Shown piece after piece: positions 26,460 through 52,409 of a stretch of DNA of 64,000 bases. The translations under genes and the position numbers were made by a program. Each line of letters opens with the position of its first letter. Position 1 is the first letter of the stretch. The notes under the pieces were generated by a model. That model was not told the origin of the DNA, did not search any database, and saw nothing but the letters and a program-made list of their open reading frames with translations. Source of the stretch: Burkholderia metallica (GTDB lineage Bacteria; Pseudomonadota; Gammaproteobacteria; Burkholderiales; Burkholderiaceae); contig NZ_CADFDB010000018.1 of NCBI RefSeq assembly GCF_902832845.1, positions 30,107 to 94,106 on the forward strand, in the 5' to 3' direction.

Positions 26460-26483
26460 CCAAACTATCGTTAGGTAGTTTGG
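26460..26483. promoter_or_regulatory. Shared catabolic operator, copy A (MFS transporter)
   Basis: A 24-base site with perfect 8-base arms, CCAAACTA and TAGTTTGG, around TCGTTAGG. It matches copy B in front of the porin gene at 20 of 24 bases. It lies 145-168 bases upstream of the MFS start. Confidence 0.6.
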
Positions 26484-26609
26484 CGCGGCATGAAGTGATG
26501 TGCCATGAGTGTTATCCATTAAGCGTGGCTGCCATGAACCGTGAACTGCCACGCGGCTTCCACGCCCTGTGCCGAGGCACGGCGCACTCGATGTCCTGCG
26601 TGCTCGTTG

Positions 26610-26940
26610 CCGACCCGCGACGTTGTGCAGGCCAATCCGCTGACCGAGCATCGCGGCGTGAATCCCGGACGGCATTCGGACTGGCCGCAGGACGTGAACG
26701 GGTTCTTCCCTGGCACCCGCAGATCTCGGCGAACCCGTTCTGGACGCACGCGTTCGGGCCGACATCGGCCAACACGACGATCCGGGAGGCGCGCTTCTAC
26801 AACAAGAAGCCGAAGAGCGTGCGGAAGCGCATGCAACTCGAGCACTTCACGTCGCATATCTCCGACGGAGTGCTCGAGGATCTCGGCAACATCGAATCGA
26901 TGCGGGCCGGCATGGAGACGGGCGCGCGCGGGCCGGTTGG
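26610..26940 (+). pseudogene. Rieske ring-hydroxylating oxygenase alpha-subunit remnant (C-terminal)
   Basis: Plus-strand coding fragments in two frames read GVNPGRHSDWPQDVNGFFP and then, after a frameshift near 26705, NPFWTHAFGPTSANTTIREA, RFYNKKPKS and LEDLGNIESMRAGMETGA. This matches the C-terminal catalytic part of Rieske dioxygenase alpha subunits, where NPxRHxDWxxDVN and the terminal ED...ESMQ-like segment are typical. No Rieske cluster domain or intact frame remains. It suggests that this catabolic region once included a ring hydroxylase. Confidence 0.65.
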
Positions 26941-27020
26941 CGCGCGATGCGGGCAACGAAGCGAGCGCGCACCGGCCGTCGTGGCGACGGCGGTGCGCGT
27001 GACGAGGCGACCGGTTCCGG

Positions 27021-28202
27021 TCAGACGATCTTGCGCGAGCGCAAATCGGCCACCGTGCGCGCATCGAGCCCGATGCCGGCGAGGATTTCATCCGTGTGCT
27101 CGCCGGTCAGCGGCGGCCGCATACGAATTTCCGGCGGCGTGCGCGACAGCGAAACCGGCGTCGCGAAGATCGGCACCGGTTTCGGCGCGCCGGGATAGTC
27201 CATCCAGCGGATCACGTCGGCGGCCTTGATGGTCTCGTCCTCCAGTGCCTGGCGCGGCGAGTTGACGGGGCTGGCCGGGATGCGCGCCTGCTCCAGCGCG
27301 GCGAGCGCCTCGGCCAGCGTCTTGTCCGCGCACCATGCGCTCATGAGTTCGCTCAGGAGCGCGCCGTTCTCGCCGCGTCGCGTATCGTCGGCGAAGCGTG
27401 GATCGTCGAGCAGTTCGGGGCGGCCTACGAGCTGCGTCCAGCGTTTGAACATCGGGCGGCCGATGACCTGCGTAATGAACCAGCCGTCCGTCGCCTTGAA
27501 GATGTCGGACGGCGCGTAGCCCGATGCGCGGTTCAGCGTGGCCTGGCGATCCAGCCCGAGCAGCGCTTCCTCGATCAGCGCGCCGCTGGCCATGTTCAGG
27601 CCCGTGCATAGCAGCGACGCGCTGACTTCCTGGCCCATGCCGCTGCGCTGGCGTTCATAGAGCGCGAGCATCACGCCGAGCGCACATGAAAACGCCGTGG
27701 CGAAGTCCACCACCGGCACCATGGCCTTTTGCGGCCGGTCGGGCGTACCCGCGATGTACACCGCGCCGCTCAGCGCCTGGCCGACGCCGTCGAAGCCCAC
27801 GCGGTCGCGCACGGCCTCGCTGTTGCCGAACGCGTTCGACGCGACGAGGATGACGTCGGGCTTGATCGCGCGCAGGCTGTCGTAGTCTAGCCCGAGGCTC
27901 TTGAGCGTGCGGGGCGGCATGTTGGCGATCACCACGTCGGCGTCGGCGACCAGCTTGCGCACGATGTCGCGCCCCTCGGGGCTGTCGAGATCGAGCGTCA
28001 TCGAGCGCTTGTTGCGGTTGACCTGCAGGAACAGCGCGCCTTCGCCGTGTTCGGTCACGGGCACGATGAAGCGGTCCTCGCCGCCGCCGACGCGGTCGAC
28101 GCGGATGACGTCTGCGCCATAGTCGGCGAGCAGCGCCGAACAGAACGGCCCGGCGATGAAGCGTCCGAAATCGAGGACCTTGATGCCTTCGAGTACTTTC
28201 AT
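27021..28202 (-). CDS. CaiB/BaiF class III CoA transferase
   Basis: This 393-residue enzyme moves CoA between a CoA ester and a carboxylic acid. It has the family start VLDFGRFIAGPFCSALLADYGADVI-type segment, the catalytic Asp region near residue 165 (PVVDFATAFSCALGVMLAL), and the C-terminal GEHTDEILAGIG. It is the last gene of a five-gene minus-strand operon with an acyl-CoA synthetase, a thiolase, an SDR and a MaoC hydratase, so it probably activates or recycles an acid of that pathway. Confidence 0.9.
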   Translation of the reverse strand: MKVLEGIKVLDFGRFIAGPFCSALLADYGADVIRVDRVGGGEDRFIVPVTEHGEGALFLQVNRNKRSMTLDLDSPEGRDIVRKLVADADVVIANMPPRTLKSLGLDYDSLRAIKPDVILVASNAFGNSEAVRDRVGFDGVGQALSGAVYIAGTPDRPQKAMVPVVDFATAFSCALGVMLALYERQRSGMGQEVSASLLCTGLNMASGALIEEALLGLDRQATLNRASGYAPSDIFKATDGWFITQVIGRPMFKRWTQLVGRPELLDDPRFADDTRRGENGALLSELMSAWCADKTLAEALAALEQARIPASPVNSPRQALEDETIKAADVIRWMDYPGAPKPVPIFATPVSLSRTPPEIRMRPPLTGEHTDEILAGIGLDARTVADLRSRKIV

Positions 28203-28220
28203 GTTTCGTTCACGGTTGAG

Positions 28221-30173
28221 TCAGGCGGAGGTCGCGGCCGCGCGCACTTCGTCGAGCGCGCCCGGGTTGTCGAGCGACGACAGGTCGCCCGGCGGCTGCC
28301 CGCAGTACACGCTGCGGATCACGCGCCGCATGATCTTCGAGCTGCGCGTCTTGGGCAGCTGCGCGACCACGTGCACGTGGCCGGGCCGGAACGGGCGGCC
28401 CAAGCGCTTGTCGACGTGGCCGGAAACGAGGGTTTCCAGTTCGGCGGCCGCGATAGCCGTGCCGGGCTTGGGCACGACGAAGACCACCAGTTTCTGGCCC
28501 TTGTCGGCATCCGCCACGCCGATCGCGGCCGCTTCGGCCACGTCATGCAGCTCCAGCACGACTTCCTCGACCTCGGCCGGCCCGAGCCGCTTGCCGGCGA
28601 CCTTCAGCGTGTCGTCGGAGCGGCCCATCATGAAGTAGTTGCCGTCGGGCGTGCGCAGCGCGAGGTCGCCATGCACCCAGATACCCGGAATGGTCTGCCA
28701 GTAGGTTTCCAGGTAGCGTTCGTCGTCGCGCCAGAACGATTGCGTCATGCCGACGAACGGCGCACGGATCGCCAGTTCGCCGACTTCGCCGGTCACGCTT
28801 TGGCCGTCGGCGTTCACGACGTCGGCGGCTACGCCGGGCGAGACGGTATTGAAGCCGCTCGGCGGAATCGGCCGGATCGGGACGCTCGCGAGCAGCGCGC
28901 CCGACGCTTCGGTGCCGCCCGTGTAGTTGATGACGGGCGCCGTGCCGTCGCCGAAGCGCTGCAGGAACCAGTTGAAATGCTCGGGCGCGATGCCTTCGCC
29001 CGCCGTGATCAGCAGCCGCACGGTGGAACGGTCGCCCGCGAGCGCGAGTGCCTCGTGGCTCGCCATCCCGCGGATCAGCGTCGGCGCCGAGCCGAAGTGC
29101 GTGACGCGGTGACGTTCGACCACACGCGACATGCGCGACCAGTCGGGGTAATCGGGCGCGCCGTCGTAGCACACGAGCGTCGCGCCGCGCAGCAGCGCGC
29201 AGCCGAGCACCAGCGTGCCGGCGATCCAGCCCATGTCCGCCGGCCAGCAGTAGACGTCGCCGGGATGCACGTCGAAGTGAATCAGCGAATCGTGCGCAAT
29301 CTTGATCGGGAAGCTGCCGTGCGTATGCACGACGCCCTTGGGCTTGCCCGTGGTGCCCGACGTATAGATCACCATGAACGGCGTATCGGGCGTGACCGAC
29401 ACGGCGGCGCTGCGTTGTTCCGGTGCGGCGGCCGCGGTCTCCTGCCAGTCGAGGTCGCGCGCGTCCTGCGCGGTGTCGCCTTCGCCGCGCTTCCAGATCA
29501 CGTGTTCGAGCAGCGGCAACTGGCGCCACGCGTCGCGCAGCGCGCCTTGCACGTCCACGCGCTTGGTGCGGCGCGAGAAGCCGGTGGAGGCAATCACCAT
29601 CCGCGCTTCGGCGGCGGAGAGGCGGGCGACGATCGCGTCGACGCCGAAGCCGCTGAACAGTGGCACGACCAGCGCGCCGAGGTGCACGATCGCCAGCAGC
29701 GAGACGGTGGCCTCGACGCCGTTTTCCATCAGCAGGCCGATGCGGTCGCCCTGCCTGACGCCGTGACGCGCGAGCCCCGCGGCGAAATCCTGCACGCGCT
29801 GCTCCAGTTCCGCGAAGGTCAGCGTACCGACGCTGCCGTCCTCGCGTTCGGCCACCACGGCCTTTTGCTGCGCGGTGGCGGGATGCCGTGCCCACGCGTA
29901 GATCGTGTTGACCCAGTTGAGCCTGCCGCCGGGGAACCAGCTCGGAAACTGCGCGCCGCGCGACAGGTCGACATAGCCGGTCGGCGGCACGTCCCATGCG
30001 ATCGCGCATTCGCGCATCACGGTGTCCCAGTAGCGTTCGGGTTCGGCGATCGATACGCGCATCAGCTCGTCATACGACGGCACGTCCAGCGCACGCATCA
30101 GCTTCACGATGCCGGCGTTCTGCAGCTCTCGCTGGCCCGGTTGCCAGGTCTGGCCGGATTCAGGGTGGCTCAT
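28221..30173 (-). CDS. Acyl-CoA synthetase (AMP-forming, acetoacetyl/propionyl-CoA synthetase-like)
   Basis: This is a 650-residue ANL-superfamily ligase. The AMP-binding motif is MVIYTSGTTGKPKGVVHTHG, and further motifs are YTGGTEASG and WVHGDLALRTPDGNYFMMGR. The catalytic lysine lies in KTRSSKIMRR near the C-terminus. It joins a carboxylic acid to CoA with ATP and is cytoplasmic. GGAGACT precedes the ATG. It lies 18 bases upstream of the CoA transferase gene; the substrate is not known. Confidence 0.9.
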   Translation of the reverse strand: MSHPESGQTWQPGQRELQNAGIVKLMRALDVPSYDELMRVSIAEPERYWDTVMRECAIAWDVPPTGYVDLSRGAQFPSWFPGGRLNWVNTIYAWARHPATAQQKAVVAEREDGSVGTLTFAELEQRVQDFAAGLARHGVRQGDRIGLLMENGVEATVSLLAIVHLGALVVPLFSGFGVDAIVARLSAAEARMVIASTGFSRRTKRVDVQGALRDAWRQLPLLEHVIWKRGEGDTAQDARDLDWQETAAAAPEQRSAAVSVTPDTPFMVIYTSGTTGKPKGVVHTHGSFPIKIAHDSLIHFDVHPGDVYCWPADMGWIAGTLVLGCALLRGATLVCYDGAPDYPDWSRMSRVVERHRVTHFGSAPTLIRGMASHEALALAGDRSTVRLLITAGEGIAPEHFNWFLQRFGDGTAPVINYTGGTEASGALLASVPIRPIPPSGFNTVSPGVAADVVNADGQSVTGEVGELAIRAPFVGMTQSFWRDDERYLETYWQTIPGIWVHGDLALRTPDGNYFMMGRSDDTLKVAGKRLGPAEVEEVVLELHDVAEAAAIGVADADKGQKLVVFVVPKPGTAIAAAELETLVSGHVDKRLGRPFRPGHVHVVAQLPKTRSSKIMRRVIRSVYCGQPPGDLSSLDNPGALDEVRAAATSA

Positions 30174-30188
30174 GGTTAGTCTCCTGCC

Positions 30189-31394
30189 TTATGCGCGTTC
30201 GACGATCATCGCGATGCCCTGGCCGCCGCCGATGCACATCGTTTCCAGGCCGTAGCGGGCCTGGCGACGCTGCATTTCATGCAGCAGCGTGGTCATGATG
30301 CGCCCGCCCGTCGCGCCCACCGGGTGGCCCAGCGAAATGCCCGAGCCGTTCACGTTGAGCCTGTCTTCCAGCGCCGCCATCGAGCTGCCCCAGCCTTTCA
30401 CGCAGGCCAGCGCCTGGCACGCGAACGCTTCGTTCAGTTCGATCAGGTCCATCTGGTCGAACGTGAGGCCGGTGCGCGTCAGCACCTTCTGCACCGCCGG
30501 CACGGGGCCGATGCCCATGCGCGCCGGGTCGCAGCCGGCGGCCGCCCAGCCGACCAGCCAGCCGATCGGCGTGAGGCCCAGCTCGTCGAGCTTGTCCTCG
30601 GCGACGATCAGGCATGCGGCCGCGGCATCGTTCTGCTGGCACGCGTTGCCGGCCGTGACGACGCCGTCCTTCATGATCGTGCGCAGCTTCGCGAGGCTGT
30701 CCGGCGTGGTGTCGCCGCGTACGCCTTCGTCCTGCCTGACGATCAGCGCATCGCCTTTGCGCTGCGGCACGGCGACGGGGACGATCTCCGCGTCGAAATG
30801 GCCGGCCTGCTGCGCGGCGGCGGCGCGCTGGTGGCTGCGGGCGGCGAAGCGGTCGGACGCTTCGCGCGTGATGTCGTATTCGCGCGCCAGCGTCTCGGCG
30901 GTTTCGATCATGCCGCTGATGCGGCCGAAACGGCTTTCCGGCTGCGAGCGCTCGCGGCCGCGGTCGAGCCGGTCGTGCATCGTGACCGAGCCCGCGCGCT
31001 TGCCCCAGCGCATGTCGGTCGTATAGAACTCGACGTTGCTCATGCTTTCGACACCGCCGGCCATTACCACGTCGGCCGCGCCGGTCTGCACCATCATCGC
31101 CGCGGTGGCCAGCGCCTGCACGCCGCCGCCGCAGCGGCGATCGAGCTGCATGCCGGCCACTTCGATCGGGAAGCCGGCCTGCAGCGCGACCCAGCGCCCG
31201 GTGCACGGCGTCTCGCCGCTCGCGTAGCTTTGCGCGAACACGACGTCGTCGATGCGCGCGGGGTCGAGCCCGGTGCGCTCCACGACCGCACGCGCGACGG
31301 TGGCGCCGAGTTCCTCGACGGGAACGCCCTTCAACGTTCCGCCGAATGCGCCCACCGGAGTGCGCAGCGGGGCGACGATGGCTGCTCGTTTCAT
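30189..31394 (-). CDS. Thiolase (acetyl-CoA C-acyltransferase)
   Basis: This 401-residue thiolase cleaves 3-ketoacyl-CoA. The nucleophile Cys is in LDRRCGGGVQAL near residue 90, the catalytic His in SGISLGHPVGATGGR, and the second Cys in ETMCIGGGQG at the C-terminus. The start MKRAAIVAPLRTPVG at 31394 fits the family; an 18-residue upstream extension is not typical. It is the third catabolic step in the operon, after the hydratase and SDR. Confidence 0.93.
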   Translation of the reverse strand: MKRAAIVAPLRTPVGAFGGTLKGVPVEELGATVARAVVERTGLDPARIDDVVFAQSYASGETPCTGRWVALQAGFPIEVAGMQLDRRCGGGVQALATAAMMVQTGAADVVMAGGVESMSNVEFYTTDMRWGKRAGSVTMHDRLDRGRERSQPESRFGRISGMIETAETLAREYDITREASDRFAARSHQRAAAAQQAGHFDAEIVPVAVPQRKGDALIVRQDEGVRGDTTPDSLAKLRTIMKDGVVTAGNACQQNDAAAACLIVAEDKLDELGLTPIGWLVGWAAAGCDPARMGIGPVPAVQKVLTRTGLTFDQMDLIELNEAFACQALACVKGWGSSMAALEDRLNVNGSGISLGHPVGATGGRIMTTLLHEMQRRQARYGLETMCIGGGQGIAMIVERA

Positions 31395-31485
31395 TTGAAT
31401 TGCCTCTTGAATGTCATGAATGTTCCGCCGCCATCGCGTGTCTGTCACGCGCTGGCTGCCAGGGCCGTGGTCCGCCGTCGTGCGA

Positions 31486-32235
31486 TCAGCCGTAGCGACC
31501 GCCCGTGACGTGCAGCACTTCGCCGCTGATGAAGCCGGCGCGCTCGCTGGCGAGGAACGCCACCGCGTCGGCGATGTCGTCCGGGCGGCCGACGCGCTTG
31601 ATCGGTTGGGCCGCCACCGCGCGCTCCTTGATCGTTTCGTAGGTCGGCAGCGCCTGCACCATTTCCGTTTCCATGAAGCCGGGCGCCACGCAGTTCGCGG
31701 TGATGCCGTAGCGGCCTTCTTCCATCGACAGCGCCTTGGCCATGCCGATCAGGCCGGCCTTCGCGGCCGAGTAGTTGGCCTGCGTCGGGTTGCCCAGGTG
31801 CGCGCGCGAGCTGATGTTGATCAGGCGGCCCCAACCTTGCTCGATGAAGTGCGGCATGACGGCCCGCGCGGCCAGGAACGCGCCCTTGAGCATCACGTTC
31901 ATCACGAAATCCCAGTCGTCCGCGCTCATCTTCACGAGGTACTTGTCGCGCGGCGCGCCGGCGTTGTTCACCAGGATGTGCACGCCGCCGAAATGCGCGA
32001 CGGTTTCGTCGACGAGACGCTGTACGTCGGCTTCCTTGGTGATGTCGCCCACGATGCAGTGCGCGGCCAGCCCTTCGTCCCGCAGCGCCTTCGCGGTGGC
32101 CTGCGCCAGTTCCGCGTTGATGTCGGTGATGACGACGCTCGCGCCTTCCTGCGCGAGCCGGCGCGCCGTGGCGGCGCCCAGGCCGCGCGCCGAGCCGGTG
32201 ACGATGGCAACCTTGCCGGTCAAACCCAGATCCAT
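31486..32235 (-). CDS. Short-chain dehydrogenase (FabG-like 3-hydroxyacyl-CoA dehydrogenase)
   Basis: This is a 249-residue classical SDR. The cofactor motif is VTGSARGLGAATARRL, NNAGAP follows, and the active site has Ser in INISSRAH and Tyr-Lys in NYSAAKAG. Given the MaoC hydratase and thiolase beside it, it probably oxidises a 3-hydroxyacyl-CoA to the ketoacyl-CoA. CAGGAGAC lies upstream of the ATG. Confidence 0.9.
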   Translation of the reverse strand: MDLGLTGKVAIVTGSARGLGAATARRLAQEGASVVITDINAELAQATAKALRDEGLAAHCIVGDITKEADVQRLVDETVAHFGGVHILVNNAGAPRDKYLVKMSADDWDFVMNVMLKGAFLAARAVMPHFIEQGWGRLINISSRAHLGNPTQANYSAAKAGLIGMAKALSMEEGRYGITANCVAPGFMETEMVQALPTYETIKERAVAAQPIKRVGRPDDIADAVAFLASERAGFISGEVLHVTGGRYG

Positions 32236-32260
32236 GTGTGTCTCCTGAAGAATTGCGTGT

Positions 32261-33136
32261 TCAGCGCAGGTCGACCCGCGCGTTGGTCAATACCACCACG
32301 TTGCGCTCCACGGCCGTGACGCGCAGCGAAACCGTCTTGTCGCGTACCCACATTTCGGTGCGCAGCGTGTCGCCGGGCCACGCCGGCGCGGTGAAGCGCA
32401 CGCGCATGCCTGCGAAGCGCGTGTCGTCGTAGGCCAGCACCGTGCGCAGCACCGCGTGCGCGGCGACGCCCATCAGCGCCATGCCGTGCAGGATGGGGCG
32501 CGGAAAACCGGCCGCCGATGCCACCGCGGGATCGGCGTGCAACGGATTCAGGTCGCCGCTCAGGCGATAGATCAGCGCCAGCTGCGCGGGCGTGGTCAGC
32601 TCGCAGACGTGATCGGGCTCGCCCTCCGGCATCGCATGGGGCACCGGCAGCGGGCCGGTGCTGCCGCCTTCGCCGAAACCGCCGTCGCCGCGCAACAGGC
32701 TCAGCTGCACGACGGTCGCGAGCAGGTGGCCCGCGTCGGCGTCGGCGATGTCGCGCGTCTGCTGCAGAAACGCGCCCTTGTTCTCGCCTTTGTCCCACAG
32801 GCCGGTGATGCGCGTCGTGCCCGTGACGCGGCCGCTGGCCGGCAGCGGCGCGTGAATCCTGATTTCCTGCTCCGCGTGCAGGATCTTTTGCCAGGTGATA
32901 CCCGTATCCGCGTCGCGCGCCCAGAAGCCCGGGTACGCCAGCACGTTCGCCATGGTCGGCAGCGCGCGCAGCGATGCACCGTCCCGGCCTTCGTAGATGT
33001 AACGCAACTGCCCGGCGTCGAGCGGATCGGCGCCGAGGCCGAGGCCGAGCGCGTAGAGCTGGGTGTCGCGCAGCGAGTACGCATGCTCGATGAGCGGGAA
33101 CGGGCGGGACAGCAGGCGATCGGGCTGGAGCGGCAT
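32261..33136 (-). CDS. MaoC-family enoyl-CoA hydratase (MFE2-like)
   Basis: This is a 291-residue double-hotdog hydratase. The C-terminal half holds the hydratase 2 motif as YRLSGDLNPLHADPAVASAAGFPRP-like residues with catalytic Asp and His, followed by ILHGMALMG. The N-terminal hotdog is the binding half, as in peroxisomal MFE-2. It hydrates trans-2-enoyl-CoA to the (R)-3-hydroxy form. It is the first gene of the operon and divergent from an acyl-CoA dehydrogenase across a gap with a GTTCCGTAC site. Confidence 0.88.
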   Translation of the reverse strand: MPLQPDRLLSRPFPLIEHAYSLRDTQLYALGLGLGADPLDAGQLRYIYEGRDGASLRALPTMANVLAYPGFWARDADTGITWQKILHAEQEIRIHAPLPASGRVTGTTRITGLWDKGENKGAFLQQTRDIADADAGHLLATVVQLSLLRGDGGFGEGGSTGPLPVPHAMPEGEPDHVCELTTPAQLALIYRLSGDLNPLHADPAVASAAGFPRPILHGMALMGVAAHAVLRTVLAYDDTRFAGMRVRFTAPAWPGDTLRTEMWVRDKTVSLRVTAVERNVVVLTNARVDLR

Positions 33137-33213
33137 GGCGAACGTGACGGCAGTGGATTCGAGCTCCTACGATGGAACCGCCGGGTGAGCCGGTCAACGG
33201 ATCGGCGAACATT

Positions 33214-33222
33214 GTTCCGTAC
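33214..33222 (+). promoter_or_regulatory. GTTCCGTAC element (copy 1) between MaoC operon and acyl-CoA dehydrogenase
   Basis: An exact copy of the 9-mer GTTCCGTAC lies 78 bases upstream of the MaoC start and 155 bases upstream of the acyl-CoA dehydrogenase start, so it could control both. Five more copies occur in other intergenic gaps up to 47 kb. Confidence 0.55.
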
Positions 33223-33376
33223 CTTGGCAGGCGAGCGGGACGCGGCCGCCGCCGGGCCAATACCGGCTTCGTCGGCACGATTTCATCCTCCGGAACGTTT
33301 TCGTCCGGGCGATTGTTTCGCGTGGGTCGCGGGCGCAGGATCTCGTCGTTTTCTCCACCTTTTCAGGCGTACCGAC

Positions 33377-34528
33377 ATGATTCGCGATCAAGAAACGCTC
33401 AACGGCCTGCTCGACTCCATTGCCCGCTTCGTGCGCGAGCGTCTCGTGCCCAACGAGGAGCAGGTGGCCGAAACCGATGAAATCCCGGAGGACATCGTCG
33501 CCGACATGAAGGCGATGGGCCTGTTCGGCCTCACCATTCCCGAACGCTTCGGCGGGCTGGAACTGACGATGGAGGAAGAGGTGCTCGCGGTGTTCGAGCT
33601 GTGCCAGGCGTCGCCGGTGTTTCGCTCGCTGCTCGGCACGACCGTGGGCATCGGTTCGCAGGGCATCCTGTTCGACGGCACGCCCGAGCAGCAGGAGCGG
33701 TATCTGCCGCGCCTCGCGACCGGCGAGCTGATCGCGTCGTTCGCGCTGACCGAGCCGGAGTCCGGCTCCGACGCGGCGTCGTTGCGCACCACGGCGATTC
33801 GCGACGGCGACGACTACGTGGTCAACGGCACCAAGCGCTTCATCACGAATGCGCCGCATGCCGGCATCTTCACGCTGATGGCGCGCACCAATCCGGAGGA
33901 CAAGGGCTCGGGCGGCATCTCGGCGTTCATCGTCGACGCGAAGTCGCCGGGCATCAGCTTCGGCAAGCGCGACAAGAAGATGGGGCAGAAGGGCGCCCAT
34001 ACCTGTGACGTGATCTTCGACAACGTGCGCGTCCCGGCCGCGAACCTGATCGGCGGGAAAGAGGGCCAGGGATTCAAGACGGCAATGAAGGTGCTCGACA
34101 AAGGGCGCATCCACATCGCAGCGGTGTGCGTGGCCGTGGCCGAGCGCATGCTGTCGATGGCGTTGTCGTATGCGATGGAGCGCAAGCAATTCGGCAAGCC
34201 GATCGCCGATTTCCAGCTCGTGCAGGCGATGCTCGCCGACAGCAAGGCCGAGATCTACGCGGCGCGCTGCATGGTGGTGGACGCCGCGCGCCGGCGCGAC
34301 GACAAGCTGCCGGTGAGTACCGAGGCGTCGTGCGCGAAGCTGTTCGCGTCCGAGATGTGCGGCCGGGTGGCCGATCGCGCGGTGCAGATTTTCGGGGGCG
34401 CCGGCTACATGGCCGAATACGCGATCGAGCGCTTCTACCGCGATGTGCGCCTGTTCCGCATCTATGAGGGCACGACGCAGATCCAGCAGATCGTGATCGC
34501 CCGCAACATGGTTCGCGACGCTCAGTGA
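33377..34528 (+). CDS. Acyl-CoA dehydrogenase
   Basis: This 383-residue FAD enzyme makes a trans-2 double bond in acyl-CoA and passes electrons to ETF. Motifs include FALTEPESGSDAASLRT, GTKRFITNAPHAG, YAMERKQFGKPIADFQLVQ, and the catalytic-base region QIFGGAGYMAEYAIERFYRD with RIYEGTTQIQQ at the end. The start at 33377 gives the usual length; upstream in-frame codons run antisense through the MaoC gene. Electrons may go to the etfAB products encoded at the right end of the window. Confidence 0.93.
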   Translation: MIRDQETLNGLLDSIARFVRERLVPNEEQVAETDEIPEDIVADMKAMGLFGLTIPERFGGLELTMEEEVLAVFELCQASPVFRSLLGTTVGIGSQGILFDGTPEQQERYLPRLATGELIASFALTEPESGSDAASLRTTAIRDGDDYVVNGTKRFITNAPHAGIFTLMARTNPEDKGSGGISAFIVDAKSPGISFGKRDKKMGQKGAHTCDVIFDNVRVPAANLIGGKEGQGFKTAMKVLDKGRIHIAAVCVAVAERMLSMALSYAMERKQFGKPIADFQLVQAMLADSKAEIYAARCMVVDAARRRDDKLPVSTEASCAKLFASEMCGRVADRAVQIFGGAGYMAEYAIERFYRDVRLFRIYEGTTQIQQIVIARNMVRDAQ

Positions 34529-34652
34529 AGCGCGGCGTGCCGGGTGTCGTGACCGGTTCCGGCGAGCGTGCCGAAGTACCGCGCGACCCTGCGCAGGTCG
34601 AACGATTTCATCCGTACGCCCGGGCCACGTGCGGCGCGATGCAGGGGGGGCG

Positions 34653-34703
34653 CAATTTCAAAATCAGAACGCCAATTTCAAAATTGAATGGATTCTGAAA
34701 TTC
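34653..34703. repeat. Three short AT-rich repeats, 20-base period
   Basis: CAATTTCAAAAT occurs at 34653-34664 and 34673-34684, exactly 20 bases apart. A third copy in inverted order with two changes is at 34692-34703. The block is far richer in AT than its surroundings and lies in an 820-base gap after the acyl-CoA dehydrogenase. It looks like tandem protein-binding sites, but no function is assigned. Confidence 0.5.
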
Positions 34704-34877
34704 GGCCTTGAACGATCTCCCCGCGAATCGGGGCCGTCGGGTGGATATCCGATGTGGCCTGCTTTTTGCGTGATGGAGCCTCGGCGTATTCGGCGCGCGC
34801 CGGTCAGGCAGGCATTTTCCTGAGTCGAACGGGCGTGGCCGAAGCACGGAAAGCTTCTACAAACGTAAGGGGATGCA

Positions 34878-35072
34878 ATGACTGGCGACCAAAAGCGAAA
34901 TGGCGTACCGCAGGACGACGCGCGCGGGATCGCGCATGAGCGAGGGGCGGGTGGCGCTCGATCGACGGTGCGGTCCGGCGACCGGCTTCGCGATGCGAAC
35001 TGGGCGTGGGCGAGAGCCGGTGCGGTCTACGACTGGATGGATCACGCGCCGTTTTTCGAGAACCGCGACTGA
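34878..35072 (+). CDS. Possible small hypothetical protein
   Basis: A 64-residue open frame starts at an ATG with AAGGGG six bases upstream. The predicted product is polar, with an aromatic end (WAWARAGAVYDWMDHAPFFE). No family is recognised. It is listed because of the good ribosome-binding site; it may equally be chance. The rest of the gap up to pyc shows no other gene. Confidence 0.3.
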   Translation: MTGDQKRNGVPQDDARGIAHERGAGGARSTVRSGDRLRDANWAWARAGAVYDWMDHAPFFENRD

Positions 35073-35349
35073 AGGTGCGGCAGGTCAGGTCGTGGCGCGG
35101 CCTCGCCGAGTTCCGATTGACGACCGGCCGGTCGGTCTCCTGTTCGTCGTCCCGGCTGGTCGGCTGAATGCTGTTCGTCGTCGCGATGTCGATAGCGACT
35201 ATCGGGCGATATGACGAAGATGTTGGCTGGCGAAAGCCGGGACGATGCAACCCGCGCCTGACCGAAGCAACGATCCGCGCGCCGCCCAGCGAAGCAAGCG
35301 GGTGGAGGGCGGCGCGTCGGCGAACTTAATTCAACCATTCACTATTCAC

Positions 35350-39129: not shown

Positions 39130-39296
39130 ATATCGGCGCTACAATTGACTCGCTTCCCGGTTGGCTCGTGTAATGAAGCCATCGGACGGTCGCATGGGGC
39201 GAGCGCCGCCACCGCATGTGGCGTCCCGCCCCGACCGGTCGGGACGAGCAGTTCATGGCCGCTTCCAGAGCCGGATCGAGACGAACGGAGCAATCG

Positions 39297-40166: not shown

Positions 40167-40173
40167 CTCGAAC

Positions 40174-40962: not shown

Positions 40963-41001
40963 ACATCGGTGCGCACGCGAACGCCAGCCGGCTTCGAAAG
41001 C

Positions 41002-41022
41002 TAACTAATGATAGTTATATTG
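41002..41022. promoter_or_regulatory. Shared catabolic operator, copy E (nitroreductase)
   Basis: TAACTAATGATAGTTA (41002-41017) is a perfect palindrome with arms TAACTA and TAGTTA, followed by TATTG. Over 21 bases it matches copy C (upstream of the enoyl-CoA hydratase) at 17 positions. It lies 44 bases upstream of the nitroreductase start. Confidence 0.55.
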
Positions 41023-43388: not shown

Positions 43389-43557
43389 AGTGATCGTGCG
43401 GCCGATATGCGGTTCGGCCATAGCCGGCGGGCGGCTTCGCGACGCCGATCCGCCGGCGAGAGATTCAGGCAATCGCGGGGCCGCCCGGCCACGCGCGGCG
43501 GGCCGACCAGCCGCGTCCGGGTTCGCTGGCTCGCGCCCTGAAAATACGCTACCCTCT

Positions 43558-43572
43558 CAAACATTAGTTTTG
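43558..43572. promoter_or_regulatory. Shared catabolic operator, weaker copy F (TetR/hydrolase gap)
   Basis: CAAACATTAGTTTTG at 43558-43572 is palindrome-like (CAAAC and GTTTTG). Its complement matches the left part of copy A at 11 of 15 bases. It lies about 200 bases before the TetR gene at 43771, in a 500-base gap between divergent genes. The match is weak. Confidence 0.35.
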
Positions 43573-43770: not shown

Positions 43771-44439
43771 GTGCGAAAGCGAAATGTAAATCCCAGCGCG
43801 GATACCCGGGAAACCTTGCTGCGGCTTGCCGCACGCTCCTTTGCGACACAGGGCTATGCCGCGACGACGATGCGCGCCATTGCCGACCAGGCCGGGATCG
43901 AGGCAGCCAGCATCTACTATCACTTCTCGTCGAAGGAAGAACTGGTCGACGTCGTGATGGAGCACGGCGCGGACAGCATCGTGCAGCACATCAAGGACCA
44001 TTTCGACGCGCTGCCGCCCGATGCGACGGCCGAAGCCCGCTTCAAGGCGGCGCTGCTCGGGCAGATGAGCGCGCTGATCAAGTTCGGCGACTACGCGCTT
44101 GCGCACGGCCGGCTGCTGACCCAGCTTCCGGACAAGGTGCGGGAGCGCCAGGTCAAGCGGCGCGAGCGCCATCAGCAGCTGTGGACGGCCGTGTTCGACG
44201 ACTTGCGCGCCGAAGGATTCCTGCGCGAGGACGTCGACATCGCGCTGTGTCGCGTGTTCGTCCTCGGTTGCATCAACTCCGTCCAGACCTGGTTCGACCC
44301 GAAGAAGGGCTCGCTGGACAAGGTTGCCGATCAGCTCAGCACGATGTTCTTCGAGGGCGTGAAGCCGGAAGCAGGTGCGAAGCCCGCGACGAAAGCCAGG
44401 CGAAGCAGCCGCAAAGCCGAGCTGGCCGCATCGTCCTGA
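43771..44439 (+). CDS. TetR-family transcriptional regulator, candidate catabolic repressor
   Basis: This is a 222-residue TetR protein. The helix-turn-helix region is DTRETLLRLAARSFATQGYA, then MRAIADQAGIEAASIYYHFSSKEEL. The C-terminal domain is of the type found in acyl-CoA-responsive repressors (KstR2/FadR-like length and helix pattern), which is a loose judgement. The start is a GTG with only a weak ribosome-binding site. It sits between two paralogous hydrolases and near a shared operator copy, so it is a candidate master repressor of the region. Confidence 0.88.
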   Translation: MRKRNVNPSADTRETLLRLAARSFATQGYAATTMRAIADQAGIEAASIYYHFSSKEELVDVVMEHGADSIVQHIKDHFDALPPDATAEARFKAALLGQMSALIKFGDYALAHGRLLTQLPDKVRERQVKRRERHQQLWTAVFDDLRAEGFLREDVDIALCRVFVLGCINSVQTWFDPKKGSLDKVADQLSTMFFEGVKPEAGAKPATKARRSSRKAELAASS

Positions 44440-45632: not shown

Positions 45633-46742
45633 CTAGAAACGCTTGTTGATCCCGATGATCGCGCCGATCGTCGTGCCCGGCGCGCCGTACAGCGCGTTGT
45701 CGATCGACAGGCCGAATTTTTCCCGGCCGTGATTGTTCGCCGCGCCGACCTCCACATACAGCGACGTCGCTTTCGACAGGAAGTAGCGCGTCGTCAGCGC
45801 ACCGAGCAGCGTGTGATTGTTCGCGTCCTGCGGATCGCGGATGTACCACACGCCCGAGTTGATATCGAGCTGCGGCAGCGGATAGTAGTCGAAGCCGAGA
45901 TTCCACACGTTGTTGGTGCCGCCGTTCGTCACACCGCCGACGACCGTCGTCGGCAGCTTGTAGCTCGTGAACGAGCCCTTCACCGCGAACGTGCCGAAGT
46001 GGTAGCCGAGCCCGATCATCCGTCCGAGGAACGGTTGCTGGAAGGGCGTCAGCGCCGCGGTGCTTCTGGCCGAACTCGAGTCGTACATCGCGGCGTTCAC
46101 GACCAGGCCGTGAAACTCGTAGCGCGCGCTGACCGAATACTGCTGCCCCGCGCGATAGTCGCCCGGCACGCCGCCGAACGCATACATCGCGCTGGCGGAA
46201 AACCCGGCGATCTTCGGGCTCGTATAGGTGATCGCATTCGGATTGAAAGTGCCGACGAACGTATTGGCGCCGTAGACGGAGAACGACGTGCCGAACTGGC
46301 CCGCGTTGCGCGGGTCAGCCTCGTAGATCGCCAGCACGAAAGGCGAATACTGCACGCCGGCCTTCAGTTGGCCGAAGTTGCCGTCGAGGGCCAGCCATGC
46401 CTGGCGGCCGAAGAAATTGCCGTTGCTGTTGTCGAAGCCGCCGTTGACGACGCTCACGCCGCTTTCCAGTCTGAAGGTCGCCTTCAGGCCGCCACCGAGG
46501 TCTTCCTGCCCGAACAGACCGAAATTGGAGGGTTCCAGGCCGCCGTTGATGAGGCTGACCTGCTTGCCGCCGTTCGTACCGGTCATCGAGTTGAGTGTCT
46601 TGTTGGTGAACAGCAGGCCCGTATCGAGCGTGCCGTAAAGCGTGACGCTGCTTTGCGCCCATGACCATGCGGGCATGAGCGCCATGCCAAGTGCGAGGAT
46701 GGTCTTCGTCGTACCCAAACCTGATGATCGGCTTACATTCAT
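45633..46742 (-). CDS. Gram-negative porin (OmpC/Burkholderia type)
   Basis: This is a 369-residue outer-membrane porin. It has a signal peptide (TTKTILALGMALMPAWSWA, cut before QSS), the mature start SVTLYGTLDTGLLF, beta strands alternating with loops, and the C-terminal aromatic residue (INKRF) needed for assembly. It probably admits the substrate of this catabolic region. Upstream lie a shared operator copy and a GTTCCGTAC element. Confidence 0.92.
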   Translation of the reverse strand: MNVSRSSGLGTTKTILALGMALMPAWSWAQSSVTLYGTLDTGLLFTNKTLNSMTGTNGGKQVSLINGGLEPSNFGLFGQEDLGGGLKATFRLESGVSVVNGGFDNSNGNFFGRQAWLALDGNFGQLKAGVQYSPFVLAIYEADPRNAGQFGTSFSVYGANTFVGTFNPNAITYTSPKIAGFSASAMYAFGGVPGDYRAGQQYSVSARYEFHGLVVNAAMYDSSSARSTAALTPFQQPFLGRMIGLGYHFGTFAVKGSFTSYKLPTTVVGGVTNGGTNNVWNLGFDYYPLPQLDINSGVWYIRDPQDANNHTLLGALTTRYFLSKATSLYVEVGAANNHGREKFGLSIDNALYGAPGTTIGAIIGINKRF

Positions 46743-46878: not shown

Positions 46879-46902
46879 GCAATCTAACGTTAGGTAGATT
46901 GG
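46879..46902. promoter_or_regulatory. Shared catabolic operator, copy B (porin)
   Basis: A 24-base site with arms CAATCTA and TAGATTG around ACGTTAGG. It matches copy A (MFS transporter) at 20 of 24 bases. It lies 137-160 bases upstream of the porin start. Confidence 0.6.
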
Positions 46903-47410: not shown

Positions 47411-48229
47411 TTACTTGCCCATCGGTTTCGCGAACATCATGTGCGACATGCCGCCGTCGCATGCGATCGACTGGGCCGTGATGTAGCCGGCCGCGGGCGA
47501 CGCGAGGTACACGATCAGGTCGGCGACTTCCGACGGCTGGCCTATCCGGCTCATCGGCAGCATCGCCGCAAGCTGGTCGAGCAGATCCTGCGGCACCGAG
47601 CCGCGCGCCATCGGCGTGTCGATGACGCCGGGAAGCACGACGTTCACACGCACGCCGTACGACGCCCACTCGTGCGCCATCTGCCGGCTGAGCGTGATGA
47701 GCGCCGCCTTGCTCGGGCCATACGCGCCGCCCTGCGAATAGCCGTGCACGCCCGCCAGCGAAGCCGTGTTCACGATCGCCGCGTGGGGGCTCTTCTTCAG
47801 GTGCGGCAGTGCGCTGCGCGCGAGCATTAGCGCGCCGTCCACGTTGACCTGGAAGCCGCTGCGCCATTCGTCGATCGGCACGTCCTCGAGCATCCCGGAA
47901 CGCACCAGCGCGGCGGTGTTGATGACGACGTCGAGCCTTCCGAAGTGTTCGACCGTTCTGGCGATGGCCGCGTCGATGTCCGACTGTTTCGATACGTCGA
48001 GGCCGAGCGCAATGGCATGGCCGTCGTGACGCGCGATCTCGCCGGCCACGCGTTCGGCGTTGCCCGCATTCATGTCGGCAACGGCGACCGCGCCGCCGTT
48101 TGCCGCGAAGGTTTTCGCGCTGGCTTCGCCCATGCCGCTGCCCGCGCCGACCACCAGCGCGACCAGCCCCTTGATGCGCGAATGGATCATCCAGTCGTGC
48201 GGCGCTGCGTCGTTGGATTCAGTGTTCAT
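47411..48229 (-). CDS. Short-chain dehydrogenase/reductase
   Basis: This is a 272-residue classical SDR. The cofactor loop is ALVVGAGSGMGEASAKTFA, the active-site Tyr-Lys lies in GAYGPSKAALITL, and PGVIDTPMA follows. The ALDH and MmgE/PrpD genes lie upstream on the same strand, so it probably oxidises an alcohol of the same pathway. GGAGGAG-like bases precede the ATG. Confidence 0.9.
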   Translation of the reverse strand: MNTESNDAAPHDWMIHSRIKGLVALVVGAGSGMGEASAKTFAANGGAVAVADMNAGNAERVAGEIARHDGHAIALGLDVSKQSDIDAAIARTVEHFGRLDVVINTAALVRSGMLEDVPIDEWRSGFQVNVDGALMLARSALPHLKKSPHAAIVNTASLAGVHGYSQGGAYGPSKAALITLSRQMAHEWASYGVRVNVVLPGVIDTPMARGSVPQDLLDQLAAMLPMSRIGQPSEVADLIVYLASPAAGYITAQSIACDGGMSHMMFAKPMGK

Positions 48230-48273: not shown

Positions 48274-49746
48274 TCACTCGGCCGGCTGGTCCAGTACCAC
48301 GGTCTTGGATTCGAGGAACGCTTCGAGGCCGCCCACGCCGCCTTCGCGGCCCACGCCCGATTGCTTGAAGCCGCCGAAGCCGATCGAGAAATCGGTGCGC
48401 GACGCGTTGTGTCCGACCGACCCCGCGCGCAACAGGCGCGCGACACGCAGCGCGCGCTGCGTGTCGTGCGTGAACACCGCGGCATTCAGCCCGAAGATCG
48501 TGTCGTTGGCCATGTCGATCGCATGTTGCTCGCTGTCGGCGGGAATCACCGACAGCACGGGGCCGAAGAACTCGTCCTGCGCGATGCGGGAGCGGTTGTC
48601 CACGTTGGCGAATACCGTCGGTTCGAAGAAGAAGCCGCGCGGCAGGTGCGCGGGCCGCTTGCCGCCGACTGCCAGCCGTGCGCCGTCCGACACGCCCTGG
48701 GCGACCCGTCGTTCGATCGCGTCGCGCTGGGCCGCCGTGGCGAGCGGGCCCATGCTCGTGGCGTCGTCGAGCGGGTCGCCCAGCGTCATCCCGCGCGCCG
48801 CGGCGACCAGCGCGTCGACCATCTGATCGTGCCTCGCTCGCGGCACGATGATGCGGGTGAGGCTGTGGCAAACCTGGCCCGACAGGTAGCTGAAGTACGG
48901 CGCACCGAGCGTCTTCGCGGCCGTTTCGATGTCGTAGTCGTCGAGCACCACGGCGGGCGACTTGCCGCCGAGCTCGAGCGTGACGCGCGCCACGCGCTCG
49001 GCCGCGACCGCGCCGATGCGCCGGCCCGCGGCGGTGGAGCCGGTGAAGGTGATCTTGTCCACGCCCGGGTGACGTACGAGCGACTCGGACACGGCCCGAT
49101 CCGCCGTCAGCATGTTGACCACGCCGGGCGGCAACCCGACTTCGTCGCAGATTTGCGCGAACAGATGGCCGGAACTCGGTGTTTCCGGCGAGTTCTTGAT
49201 GACGACCGTGCAGCCCGCGAGCAGTGCCGGCGCGATCTTGTACGCGAGCAGCCCGGCCGGGCCGTTCCACGGCACGATGACCGCGACGACGCCCACCGGC
49301 TCCTGAACGCGGTACGCCTGGTGTCCGGTGACGGAACGTGCGGGCTCGACGAACGGATAGCTGCGCGCCATGGCCGCGTACTGGCGAAACGCGCCGCTCA
49401 GGAACAGGCCGATGCGCGGCTGGGCAATCCTGTAGAGCACGCCGGACTCGATGCTCCAGCCGCGCGCGAAATCGTCGTTCAGCGCTTCGAGGCGCTCGGC
49501 GATTTTCTCGAGGCAGGTTGCGCGCTCGGCGGGGGACAACTGCGGCCACGGCCCGCGATCGAACGCGTCACGCGCGGCGCGCACGGCGGCATCGACGTCC
49601 GTCTCGGTGGCCATGGCTGCGTGCGCAACGACTTCTTCGGTTGCGCAGTTGAGCACGGCGAAGGTTTCGGCGGAAGCGGGCGCCACCCAGCGTCCGCCGA
49701 TGTAGAGGCGATCCGCATGCGGCATGTTGACGGTATGACGGGGCAT
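48274..49746 (-). CDS. NAD-dependent aldehyde dehydrogenase
   Basis: This is a 490-residue aldehyde dehydrogenase. The NAD motif is FTGSTAAGRRIG, the general base Glu lies in VTLELGGKSP and the nucleophile Cys in YLSGQVCHSLTRIIV. The C-terminal substrate region is FGGFKQSGVGREGG. It oxidises an unknown aldehyde to the acid. The start at 49746 gives the usual N-terminus (RLYIGGRWVAP). It lies between an SDR and an MmgE/PrpD gene in one operon. Confidence 0.92.
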   Translation of the reverse strand: MPRHTVNMPHADRLYIGGRWVAPASAETFAVLNCATEEVVAHAAMATETDVDAAVRAARDAFDRGPWPQLSPAERATCLEKIAERLEALNDDFARGWSIESGVLYRIAQPRIGLFLSGAFRQYAAMARSYPFVEPARSVTGHQAYRVQEPVGVVAVIVPWNGPAGLLAYKIAPALLAGCTVVIKNSPETPSSGHLFAQICDEVGLPPGVVNMLTADRAVSESLVRHPGVDKITFTGSTAAGRRIGAVAAERVARVTLELGGKSPAVVLDDYDIETAAKTLGAPYFSYLSGQVCHSLTRIIVPRARHDQMVDALVAAARGMTLGDPLDDATSMGPLATAAQRDAIERRVAQGVSDGARLAVGGKRPAHLPRGFFFEPTVFANVDNRSRIAQDEFFGPVLSVIPADSEQHAIDMANDTIFGLNAAVFTHDTQRALRVARLLRAGSVGHNASRTDFSIGFGGFKQSGVGREGGVGGLEAFLESKTVVLDQPAE

Positions 49747-49775
49747 GTCCGGATTTTCCAGGTTGCTGTCCACGC

Positions 49776-51215
49776 TCAGTTGCCCGACGATCGCACGAAC
49801 TGGCGGATGACGGTCCCGAAGTCGTCCACCTTTTCGAGGTTCAGCACGCTGTCGACTACCCGGTCGATGGTCGATGCCGGCAGCAGGCCGTCGACGAACG
49901 TGCGGAACTTGTTCACCAGTTCGTCGGTGGTCATGTAGGTCGCGGGGTCCGCCGACGGCGTTCCTTTGGGGAACGTCTTCTCGCCGGCGAAGACCTGGCC
50001 GCGCGCACGCACTTCCACGCGCGACGGGCGGCTGGAGATGTCCGCCGATATCGACTCGAAATAGGCAGGATGGGTTTCCAGCGACACGCGGTTCATCAGC
50101 GCCATCACGGACGGGTCGAACACGACGGACGGGTCCTGCCACCGGGGGCCGGGCGGGATGCGATGGGCCGCGACGGCCAGCCCGTGCGAAAAGCAGAACT
50201 GCGCGTCGTGCACCTCCAGGATTTCCCGGTTGGTGAAGCAGGGCAGCACATAGGCCCAGCCTTCGCCGAAGGAGGTGATGCCGTCGATCTCGTCGGGCTT
50301 CAGGTCGTTGCGGGTCACGATGTCGATCAGCAGGTCGAGCGGCGCGTGCATCACGCGACAGTGCGGATAGGGCTTGAACATCTGGAAGCCGGGAAAGCGC
50401 CACTCGTCGCCCAGGTTGTCGGTAATCTTCTCGGGCATCCAGCGGTCGGTGCCGATGAAGCTCGCGTAACCGTTGACCTCGTCGTCGAGGATGCGCAAAT
50501 CGCCGCGATGGCCCAGTTCACCCAGGTCGGCGGCCGTGAGCGCGATGTTGGTCAGGCCGCCGGCGAGCTGGTACTTGATGGTGGCGGTGGGGGCGTGCGT
50601 AAACCACGCGCGTTGCGCATTCACCGGCGCCGATGCGGCGGCCAGGCCCAGCGCATTGGCCAGTTTGGCGGCCGACAGCCGCTTGAGCTTGCCCGCGGAC
50701 GCGGTGGCGCCGAATACGGTGCTGCTGTAGCCGACCACCGATGCGGGATTCGCGGATTTGCCATCTTTGGTGTCGCGGTAGCCGCTCATCGCGGCGCCGA
50801 AGCGGCACGAGATCTCGTGCGACACGGCCACGGCGGCGATCAGGTCGCGGCCGGAGCGCCGGTGCGTCTCCGCCGTCGCGAATGCGCCGGGCAGTACGTA
50901 CGGGCTCACGTGGCCCGGCAACAGCACGGAGTCGGCGTCGAGCGCGTTGAGCAATTCGCTGTTGGCGAACGCGGCGCCGTACGCGGTCGAGCGCTCGCCG
51001 GTGCCGATGATGGTTGCATCGCCCGCGCTGCCGCCGATGCGGCGGCCCGTTTCGATGCCGATGCGCCCCCTCGGATGATCGATACCCGCCAGCGCGACGC
51101 CCAGCGAATCGAGGATGTCGCGTTTGCATTCCTGCACGACGATGTCGGGTAACCGGGCGATGTCGACGTCGGCCGAGAAATCGGCCAGTTGCTGGACGAT
51201 GGTGGGGTGACTCAT
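49776..51215 (-). CDS. MmgE/PrpD-family protein (first copy)
   Basis: This is a 479-residue member of the family of 2-methylcitrate dehydratase PrpD and related lyases. Visible parts are the helical start (VQQLADFSADVDIARLPDIV), DSLGVALAGIDHPRG, NALDADSVLLPGHVSPYVLPGA and MFKPYPHCRVMHAPLD. Members dehydrate or isomerise hydroxy-acids; many non-propionate versions exist. It is the first gene of a minus-strand operon, divergent from an enoyl-CoA hydratase across shared operator C. Confidence 0.88.
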   Translation of the reverse strand: MSHPTIVQQLADFSADVDIARLPDIVVQECKRDILDSLGVALAGIDHPRGRIGIETGRRIGGSAGDATIIGTGERSTAYGAAFANSELLNALDADSVLLPGHVSPYVLPGAFATAETHRRSGRDLIAAVAVSHEISCRFGAAMSGYRDTKDGKSANPASVVGYSSTVFGATASAGKLKRLSAAKLANALGLAAASAPVNAQRAWFTHAPTATIKYQLAGGLTNIALTAADLGELGHRGDLRILDDEVNGYASFIGTDRWMPEKITDNLGDEWRFPGFQMFKPYPHCRVMHAPLDLLIDIVTRNDLKPDEIDGITSFGEGWAYVLPCFTNREILEVHDAQFCFSHGLAVAAHRIPPGPRWQDPSVVFDPSVMALMNRVSLETHPAYFESISADISSRPSRVEVRARGQVFAGEKTFPKGTPSADPATYMTTDELVNKFRTFVDGLLPASTIDRVVDSVLNLEKVDDFGTVIRQFVRSSGN

Positions 51216-51399
51216 GTGTCTCGCTCCTCGTTCTGATCTGTTTCTGCGAATACCGTCAGGTTTGGCTCTGATGCCGCCGTACGCAATGTTTGCGCCCGAA
51301 ACGTTCCGCGCTTCGAAAATCCCGCACCGGCAAGCGCGCGCTCGACCGGCGCATGCGGGCATTCCCTGATGGGAAATCCCCGCACGCGAAATAGAATAA

Positions 51400-51418
51400 C
51401 AACTGTTAGTTAGATTGC
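51400..51418. promoter_or_regulatory. Shared catabolic operator, copy C (MmgE operon / enoyl-CoA hydratase)
   Basis: CAACTGTTAGTTAGATTG lies between divergent genes, 185 bases from the MmgE start and 116 bases from the enoyl-CoA hydratase start. Its right half GTTAGTTAGATTG is identical, on the other strand, to copy D. Confidence 0.6.
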
Positions 51419-51533
51419 AAGGTATCTCGACGATCCCTTGCGCGCTCCCCCGGTGCCGCGAACCGACGCGGGTCACTTCATCGACGGGCGTCGACACACG
51501 CCGCCCGCCGTTCCACACATCCCTGGGTTCAGC

Positions 51534-52346
51534 ATGAAATACGAAGATTTCCAGTTCCTCCTGTTCGATCGCCAGCCGGACGGCGTCCTGCTCGTCACGC
51601 TCAATCGTCCGGAGGTGATGAACGCCACGAACAACCGGATGCACTGGGAGTTGACCAAGGTATGGGGCGTCGTCGGCGACGATCCGGGCGTCAAGGTGGT
51701 CGTCGTGACGGGCGCCGGCGATCGCGCGTTCTCGGCCGGCGGCGATCTCTCCGTGGTCGAGGAAATGGCGGCCAGCCAGGAGGCCACGATGCGCGTGATG
51801 AAGGAGGCGTCCGACATCGTCTACAACATGCTCGCGTGCGACAAGCCGATCGTCTCCGCGATCAACGGCACGGCCGTCGGCGCGGGCCTCGTCGTCGCGT
51901 TGCTGGCGGACGTGAGCGTGATGGCCGAGGATGCGAAGCTGACCGACGGACATGCACGCCTCGGCGTGTCGGCGGGCGATCACGCGGCCATCGTGTGGCC
52001 GCTGCTGTGCGGGATGGCGAAGGCCAAGTATTACCTGATGACCGCGGATTTCGTCGACGGCAAGGAAGCTGAACGAATCGGCCTGGTCAGCTTTTGCGTG
52101 CCGCGCGTCGACGTGCTGTCGCGATCGCTGGCCATTGCCGCCAACCTCGCGCGCGGCAGCCAGACCGCGATTCGTGCGACCAAGAAATCGCTCAACAACT
52201 GGATGCGCGTGGCGGGGCCGGTATTCGACAACTCGCTCGCGCTGGAGATGCTGTGTTTCCTGGGTGCGGACGTCAAGGAAGGCGTTGCCGCCTTGCGCGG
52301 CAAGCGTCAGCCCGAATTTCCGTCGGCCCGGCTGCCGCAGGCGTGA
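51534..52346 (+). CDS. Enoyl-CoA hydratase/isomerase family protein
   Basis: This is a 270-residue crotonase-fold enzyme. It has VLLVTLNRPEVMNATNNRM, the oxyanion-hole segment RAFSAGGDLSVVEEM and INGTAVGAGLVVALLADVSVMAED. The second usual catalytic Glu position reads AGDHA, so it may not be a simple hydratase. The start at 51534 lacks a clear ribosome-binding site but gives the usual length. It is divergent from the MmgE operon. Confidence 0.88.
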   Translation: MKYEDFQFLLFDRQPDGVLLVTLNRPEVMNATNNRMHWELTKVWGVVGDDPGVKVVVVTGAGDRAFSAGGDLSVVEEMAASQEATMRVMKEASDIVYNMLACDKPIVSAINGTAVGAGLVVALLADVSVMAEDAKLTDGHARLGVSAGDHAAIVWPLLCGMAKAKYYLMTADFVDGKEAERIGLVSFCVPRVDVLSRSLAIAANLARGSQTAIRATKKSLNNWMRVAGPVFDNSLALEMLCFLGADVKEGVAALRGKRQPEFPSARLPQA

Positions 52347-52384
52347 CCGGTCGAGCGCACGTATCGCGCTCGTGTCGGGTCCTT

Positions 52385-52407
52385 CAATCTAACTAACGAC
52401 AGGTTAA
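52385..52407. promoter_or_regulatory. Shared catabolic operator, copy D (ALDH operon)
   Basis: CAATCTAACTAAC (52385-52397) is the exact reverse complement of the GTTAGTTAGATTG half in copy C, followed by a degenerate partner ending GGTTAAATG. It lies upstream of the SMP-30 remnant and of the ALDH gene at 52694. Confidence 0.6.
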
Positions 52408-52409
52408 AT

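Follow-up and report, generated by a model that had tools for sequence, protein, structure and literature searches.

Does a short sequence that recurs before scattered catabolic genes mark them as targets of one regulator and, if so, which protein reads it? The question is raised by a 64,000-nucleotide stretch of Burkholderia metallica (contig NZ_CADFDB010000018.1; hereafter the window), in which an earlier reading of the letters (the original prediction) described a recurring site of roughly 20 bases before genes for a major facilitator superfamily (MFS) transporter (site A), a nitroreductase (E), a porin (B), a divergent MmgE/enoyl-coenzyme A (CoA) hydratase pair (C) and an aldehyde dehydrogenase (ALDH) unit (D), with a weaker copy (F) near a TetR gene. 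The recurrence was confirmed: A to E are copies of one 18-bp palindrome that approximates CTAACTA-N4-TAGTTAG, and all six sites are intergenic (Table 1). From the comparison of genomes, we consider it very likely that the sites are operators of a single TetR-family specificity, which would join uptake and breakdown genes at two loci.

Recurrence and conservation of the palindrome

Recomputation gave exactly the agreements claimed for A and B (20 of 24 bases) and for C and E (17 of 21), and the 13-mer attributed to C and D, GTTAGTTAGATTG, is common to both (C, 51405, plus strand; D, 52385, minus strand). Of 400 random intergenic pairs drawn, 380 were scored with equal freedom, and the best of them agreed at 15 of 21, a maximum that the pairs A/C, B/C, C/D and D/E equal and do not exceed, and F matches the other sites at 13–14 of 21, no better than random pairs. 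At three mismatches or fewer, the palindrome occurs at four places in the window (A, B, C and E), against a mean of 0.05 in shuffled sequences, none of 100 of which reached four; D is four mismatches away by manual count, and F more.

A matrix of the site was learned from 128 upstream regions of pathway genes at 19 loci of other bacteria (Paraburkholderia, Caballeronia, Cupriavidus, Ralstonia and Xylophilus; two loci, L130 and L143, are titled Burkholderia sp.) by a palindromic expectation-maximization search, which led from 500 seeds to two solutions, of which the one with the higher likelihood, CTAACnAnCGnTnGTTAG, was used. Among the 24 loci from outside our genome set (see below), those excluded from training were L126, L127, L128, L146 and L147, which have no or weak sites, and L129, the same record as L066, which was used; leaving out weak or siteless loci favors the finding of a motif, not its position in the window. 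In the window, which lay outside the training, the six best places were A, E, B, C, D and F, in this order, with scores from 23.8 to 16.1 (Table 1) and the next place at 11.4, so that the weak copy near the TetR gene is the sixth-best place by an independently learned matrix. Simulated sequence yielded 0.13 (window composition) to 0.35 (intergenic composition) matches of at least 16 per 64 kb, and one of 30 simulated windows held a match above 22.4. In 44 control loci with weaker TetR-like matches (739 kb), 16 matches scored at least 16.

The original prediction named frequent matches inside coding regions across the genome as evidence against it; in the 7.55-Mb genome, all five places at two mismatches or fewer lie in two loci that carry a TetR gene, namely A, C and E in the window and a pair on another contig, C2 (363987 and 364792). 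The pair flanks a second TetR gene (TetR2), whose product is 66% identical to that of the window (TetR1): site T2b lies directly before TetR2, between it and a divergent AraC-type gene, and site T2a lies between TetR2 and an operon for a CitE-like CoA lyase, MaoC, an acyl-CoA dehydrogenase and a CoA-transferase. No relative of TetR2 was found in viral contigs. The proposal of one regulon of uptake and enzyme genes is thus supported by comparison, but such a regulon would span two loci, and the block at 27–41 kb of the window contains no site.

Alignments of 7 to 10 sequences per site, each compared over 181 alignment windows, present the sites as islands against their flanks (site/flank conservation: A, 0.990/0.683; B, 0.959/0.744; C, 0.950/0.798; D, 0.909/0.807; E, 0.891/0.754; F, 0.977/0.858; T2a, 0.991/0.813; T2b, 0.948/0.806), and a loss of site conservation beside conserved genes, which would also have spoken against the prediction, was not seen. 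The value of the site was reached by one alignment window for A, two for T2b, three for T2a, five each for B and F, 20 for C, 23 for E and 25 for D, and the lower rank of C, E and D perhaps stems partly from coding sequence in those stretches. Site F is retained in all nine Burkholderia genomes that carry TetR1 and in a B. arboris record. In the clusters of these nine genomes, 64 of 65 matrix matches of at least 17 lie outside mapped genes (43 query proteins, covering 388 of 722 kb), the exception being site E of genome G016, and a second site, A2, which is absent from this genome, stands beside A in six of the nine.

Candidate readers of the site

The product of the gene at 43771, TetR1, contains TetR_N (64.8 bits, cut-off 24) and TetR_C_24 (53.2 bits, cut-off 26.4) domains, and its TetR fold was confirmed by a fold comparison in which the best 1000 Foldseek chains were re-examined. 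This protein had been named as the obvious candidate, and the comparative data favor it, because, in other genomes and genera, the sites accompany the TetR gene rather than those of the two IclR-family proteins encoded nearby. The TetR1 gene is found in nine of 65 Burkholderia genomes, which carry four to seven sites each at two mismatches or fewer; among the 56 genomes without it, one (G065) has four and the rest have none to three. At least three of the 45 sites in the nine genomes lie outside the two loci among the matches listed (in G008, G024 and G076). The CoA lyase encoded at the second locus occurs in the same nine genomes.

Binding by one of the IclR proteins (gene starts 39216 and 40174) is very unlikely. 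Their local position, a resemblance to PcaR/PobR that stays below the curated cut-off, and the placement of site E after the second IclR gene speak for them; nevertheless, of the 13 genomes that encode the second IclR protein at 84% identity or more, four have both IclR genes and no TetR1, and in these four no match of at least 15 occurs in the 116.9 kb around the IclR genes, regions that hold several of the ligase, thiolase, short-chain dehydrogenase/reductase (SDR), MaoC, dehydrogenase and carboxylase genes. Moreover, a 40-kb locus of Cupriavidus pinatubonensis has sites and a TetR gene with no IclR match, and the 40 kb of contig C2 examined likewise contain none. The reader of the sites, as judged from these co-occurrences, is very probably a TetR protein.

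Which of the two TetR proteins is meant is a finer question. TetR2 might be the main reader and TetR1 a bystander with another target, since the TetR2 gene is flanked by two sites, against the weak F alone for TetR1, and since the TetR of C. pinatubonensis, which has two sites before its CoA-lyase operon, is nearer to TetR2 (73% vs. 64%). We regard this as improbable, because G016 and G069 encode TetR1 only and have kept the site before the CoA-lyase operon, and because TetR1 orthologues of Paraburkholderia and Caballeronia have sites at their own promoters in most loci, from which no second TetR copy was returned by a scan that sees only peptide-pattern matches. The genomes with TetR1 only, the TetR2-like locus of C. 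pinatubonensis and the near-identical recognition regions of the two proteins together suggest that either TetR can probably serve the same operator.

Sites of this class also occur beside other TetR genes. Two of the four sites in G065 and one of the three in G074 lie about 75 bp from such genes, and no TetR match was found close to the remaining four of the seven in the DNA examined; in five of seven loci translated around such sites, the site has a further TetR gene on one side and a glutathione-transferase gene on the other. Therefore, the operator class is associated with several TetR groups, and cross-talk with other Burkholderia TetR groups is possible. The four copies without a TetR neighbor and the presence of up to four similar short sites in Burkholderia genomes that lack TetR1 could also be taken to mean that the repeats are a mobile or chance family. 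We give this almost no credence, because the sites are palindromic, conserved amid diverged flanks, placed before genes and recovered in other genera, and because the other three copies of G065 and G074, as well as the five single copies beside the glutathione-transferase gene, adjoin other TetR genes. Other Burkholderia TetR groups with a similar site, such as CTACCTAACGTTYGTTAG, were observed at L071, L075, L080, L091 and L095 and at L243, L244 and L246.

A scan for TetR proteins of at least 56% identity, limited to its peptide patterns, returned 31 loci (from 80 kept of 93 found), seven of which belong to Burkholderia genomes of the 65-genome set; 20 of the 24 others contain a site of at least 17. 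In 14 of the 24, compared with two of the 44 control loci, the 250 bp before the TetR gene include a site of at least 16. In these outside loci, the sites recur between the MFS gene and the CoA-lyase operon, before the MmgE1 gene and before a Rieske oxygenase gene. The loci of Paraburkholderia and Caballeronia contain a TetR1 orthologue, mostly in one continuous cluster with the MFS, CoA-lyase and other targets. The split arrangement of B. metallica may be derived. Among remote homologues (29–37% identity, L153–L157), four of five have a match of at least 22.8 in the 250 bp before the TetR gene.

It is possible, though somewhat less likely than not, that CTAAC-N8-GTTAG is a conserved operator code of a whole TetR subfamily, and that two paralogous repressors in one cell share an operator set distributed over two unlinked loci, which would allow a catabolic cluster to split and still act as one regulon. 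The same code stands before remote TetR genes of Alphaproteobacteria and an actinobacterium (the four of five loci above), and perhaps in Anoxybacillus and an archaeal bin. In a Thermoplasmata archaeon bin (L159:8127), a TAAC..GTTA palindrome stands 51 bp upstream of a remote TetR homologue, and in Anoxybacillus (L183:9880) the distance is 104 bp. A Sulfitobacter plasmid encodes a TetR of 36% identity and carries related intergenic palindromes (L068:2466, 9584, 9666 and 11914) in an acyl-CoA carboxylase/AtuA-like cluster.

Several results weigh against a single TetR specificity with operators at two loci. Four of the 24 outside loci (two of Delftia, one each of Variovorax and Cupriavidus lacunae) have the TetR and no site of at least 17, and ten lack a site of at least 16 right upstream of the TetR gene. 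At three mismatches or fewer, the palindrome occurs at 15 places in this genome, six of them in the two TetR loci and the others elsewhere, and a second pattern, modeled on the learned matrix, occurs at eight, five of them in the two loci. The pattern read backward outnumbers the pattern itself in this genome (14 places at two mismatches or fewer, 114 at three or fewer), so that the placement of the five genomic sites, not their number, is the evidence; for the second pattern, the backward and forward counts are 7 and 8 here, 10 and 17 in G008, 10 and 11 in G010, and 16 and 12 in G016. This control differs from the pattern in word composition, and the shuffles and control loci were relied on instead. 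Furthermore, site F is weak, no sigma-70-like promoter was detected around A, B or C, and TetR proteins with other ligands or names, such as PfiT (19.9) and DarR (19.4), tie in the fold comparison, as do rows with CoA-ester, cyclic di-AMP and other ligands.

Proposed regulation and known relatives

The sites, their conservation, their position and their association with TetR genes are observed, and from them we infer a model of binding, repression, ligand and substrate. A TetR1 dimer would bind the 18-bp palindrome at or near promoters and repress its own gene, the uptake genes (porin and MFS) and the breakdown genes (nitroreductase, MmgE/PrpD, enoyl-CoA hydratase, SDR and ALDHs), until it was released by an intermediate of the pathway, probably a CoA ester; since the tied fold rows have different ligands, the CoA ester is a guess. 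The regulon would be divided between the window and contig C2, where the operator pair surrounds the paralogous TetR2 gene and precedes the CoA-lyase/MaoC/acyl-CoA dehydrogenase/CoA-transferase operon, and the two repressors would be expected to read identical sites. Two promoter-like hexamers bracket site E, one −35-like (from 40994) and one −10-like (to 41021), and the site covers the latter (one promoter-like match found vs. 0.1 in shuffles), and CTAACTAATG within it is invariant across 10 sequences.

The system would work in the manner of other autoregulated TetR catabolic regulons. KstR2 is a TetR repressor of cholesterol catabolism, with a regulon that includes the HIP-CoA gene set; it is a remote homologue of TetR1 (28% in the fold alignment) with different enzymes, and its operator presumably differs from the TetR1 palindrome. 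AibR, a TetR regulator that binds isovaleryl-CoA, is 21% identical to TetR1. AtuR/RdmA of acyclic terpene and diffusible signal factor catabolism is, like the system proposed here, a TetR repressor that acts at inverted repeats next to genes of acyl-CoA catabolism (PMC9973270); identity with the AtuR regulon was rejected, because the 13-bp AGCAAGCGCTTGG inverted repeats of the AtuR operator have no match in the window at one mismatch or fewer. FadP and LiuQ control beta-proteobacterial TetR regulons of acyl-CoA catabolism known from comparative-genomic reconstruction (PMC5343134); TetR1 differs in its distribution, being present in only nine of 65 genomes. Itaconate degradation was also rejected: the scores of three proteins are far below the curated RipB/RipC cut-offs (CitE1, 114 of 375 bits; MaoC2, 112 of 340; CitE2, 172 of 375), and MmgE1 bears only a remote resemblance to cis-aconitate decarboxylase (E = 4e-13). 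The regulon is apparently undescribed in the full-text literature searched, with most subscription papers and RegPrecise lying outside its coverage. With the operator, the probable regulator and the genes of a catabolic pathway defined, its substrate could be sought directly by screening compounds with a TetR reporter. The arrangement also suggests that a shared operator kept the regulon together when its genes came to lie at two places and its regulator was duplicated.

Extent of the regulon and neighboring genes

Operators in the window precede the MFS, nitroreductase and porin genes, the MmgE-ALDH-SDR series, the enoyl-CoA hydratase gene, the ALDH-ALDH-alcohol dehydrogenase series and, weakly, TetR1. 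The ligase/thiolase/carboxylase block at 27–39 kb and the IclR pair have no operator and are separable in evolution, and both may be under IclR control.

Table 1. Coordinates of the sites and genes discussed, in window numbering
Feature	Position	Strand	Remarks
MFS transporter (MFS_1), proposed target of A	24921..26315	-	start inferred from G008
Site A	26461..26482	.	145 bp upstream of MFS start (26315); matrix 23.8
Rieske ring-hydroxylating oxygenase alpha gene remnant	26613..26929	+	not intact
CaiB, acyl-CoA ligase, thiolase, SDR, MaoC, acyl-CoA dehydrogenase, biotin carboxylase block	27021..38868	.	no operator
Two IclR-family regulators	39216..40962	+	starts 39216, 40174
Site E	41001..41022	.	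before nitroreductase gene; matrix 23.7
Nitroreductase-family protein, proposed target of E	41066..41779	+	scanned from 41030
Site F, weak	43550..43571	.	about 200 bp upstream of TetR gene, alpha/beta hydrolase gene on other side; matrix 16.1
TetR1 regulator, proposed binder	43771..44439	+	TetR_N and TetR_C_24
Porin (Porin_4), proposed target of B	45633..46742	-
Site B	46880..46901	.	137 bp upstream of porin start; matrix 22.4
ALDH, then SDR	48274..49767, 47411..48229	-	downstream of MmgE, same strand
MmgE/PrpD-family protein, proposed target of C	49776..51212	-
Site C	51396..51417	.	between divergent MmgE and enoyl-CoA hydratase genes; matrix 20.5
Enoyl-CoA hydratase family protein, proposed target of C	51537..52346	+
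Site D	52385..52406	.	directly before degraded SMP-30-like gene start, upstream of ALDH genes; matrix 19.3
ALDH, ALDH, Zn-alcohol dehydrogenase, downstream of D	52697..56819	+	second by Pfam; first and third named from translations

The window is a reduced version of the cluster, in which genes found next to A and D in some relatives survive only as remnants. In G008, a whole Rieske oxygenase alpha gene stands beside the second site A2 with 8–9 kb of further genes (GMC oxidoreductase, ALDH, metallo-hydrolase, chemoreceptor, enoyl-CoA hydratase and LysR), and G024 aligns at the Rieske region like G008. Directly after D lies a degraded SMP-30/gluconolactonase-like gene (52407–52640), from which about 0.6 kb is missing compared with G008 and G024; the full gene follows D in G008, G016, G073 and G088, and none is present there in G010 and G069.

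Beside site B, a conserved block (46915–46950) contains the inverted repeat GGGTATAACCC and equals the site in conservation; it may be the site of another regulator or the porin promoter. In the B. arboris record, positions L067:6091–7296, whose distance from the TetR gene corresponds to the ligase/thiolase region of the window, are labeled as a predicted OXA beta-lactamase, a label that may be wrong.
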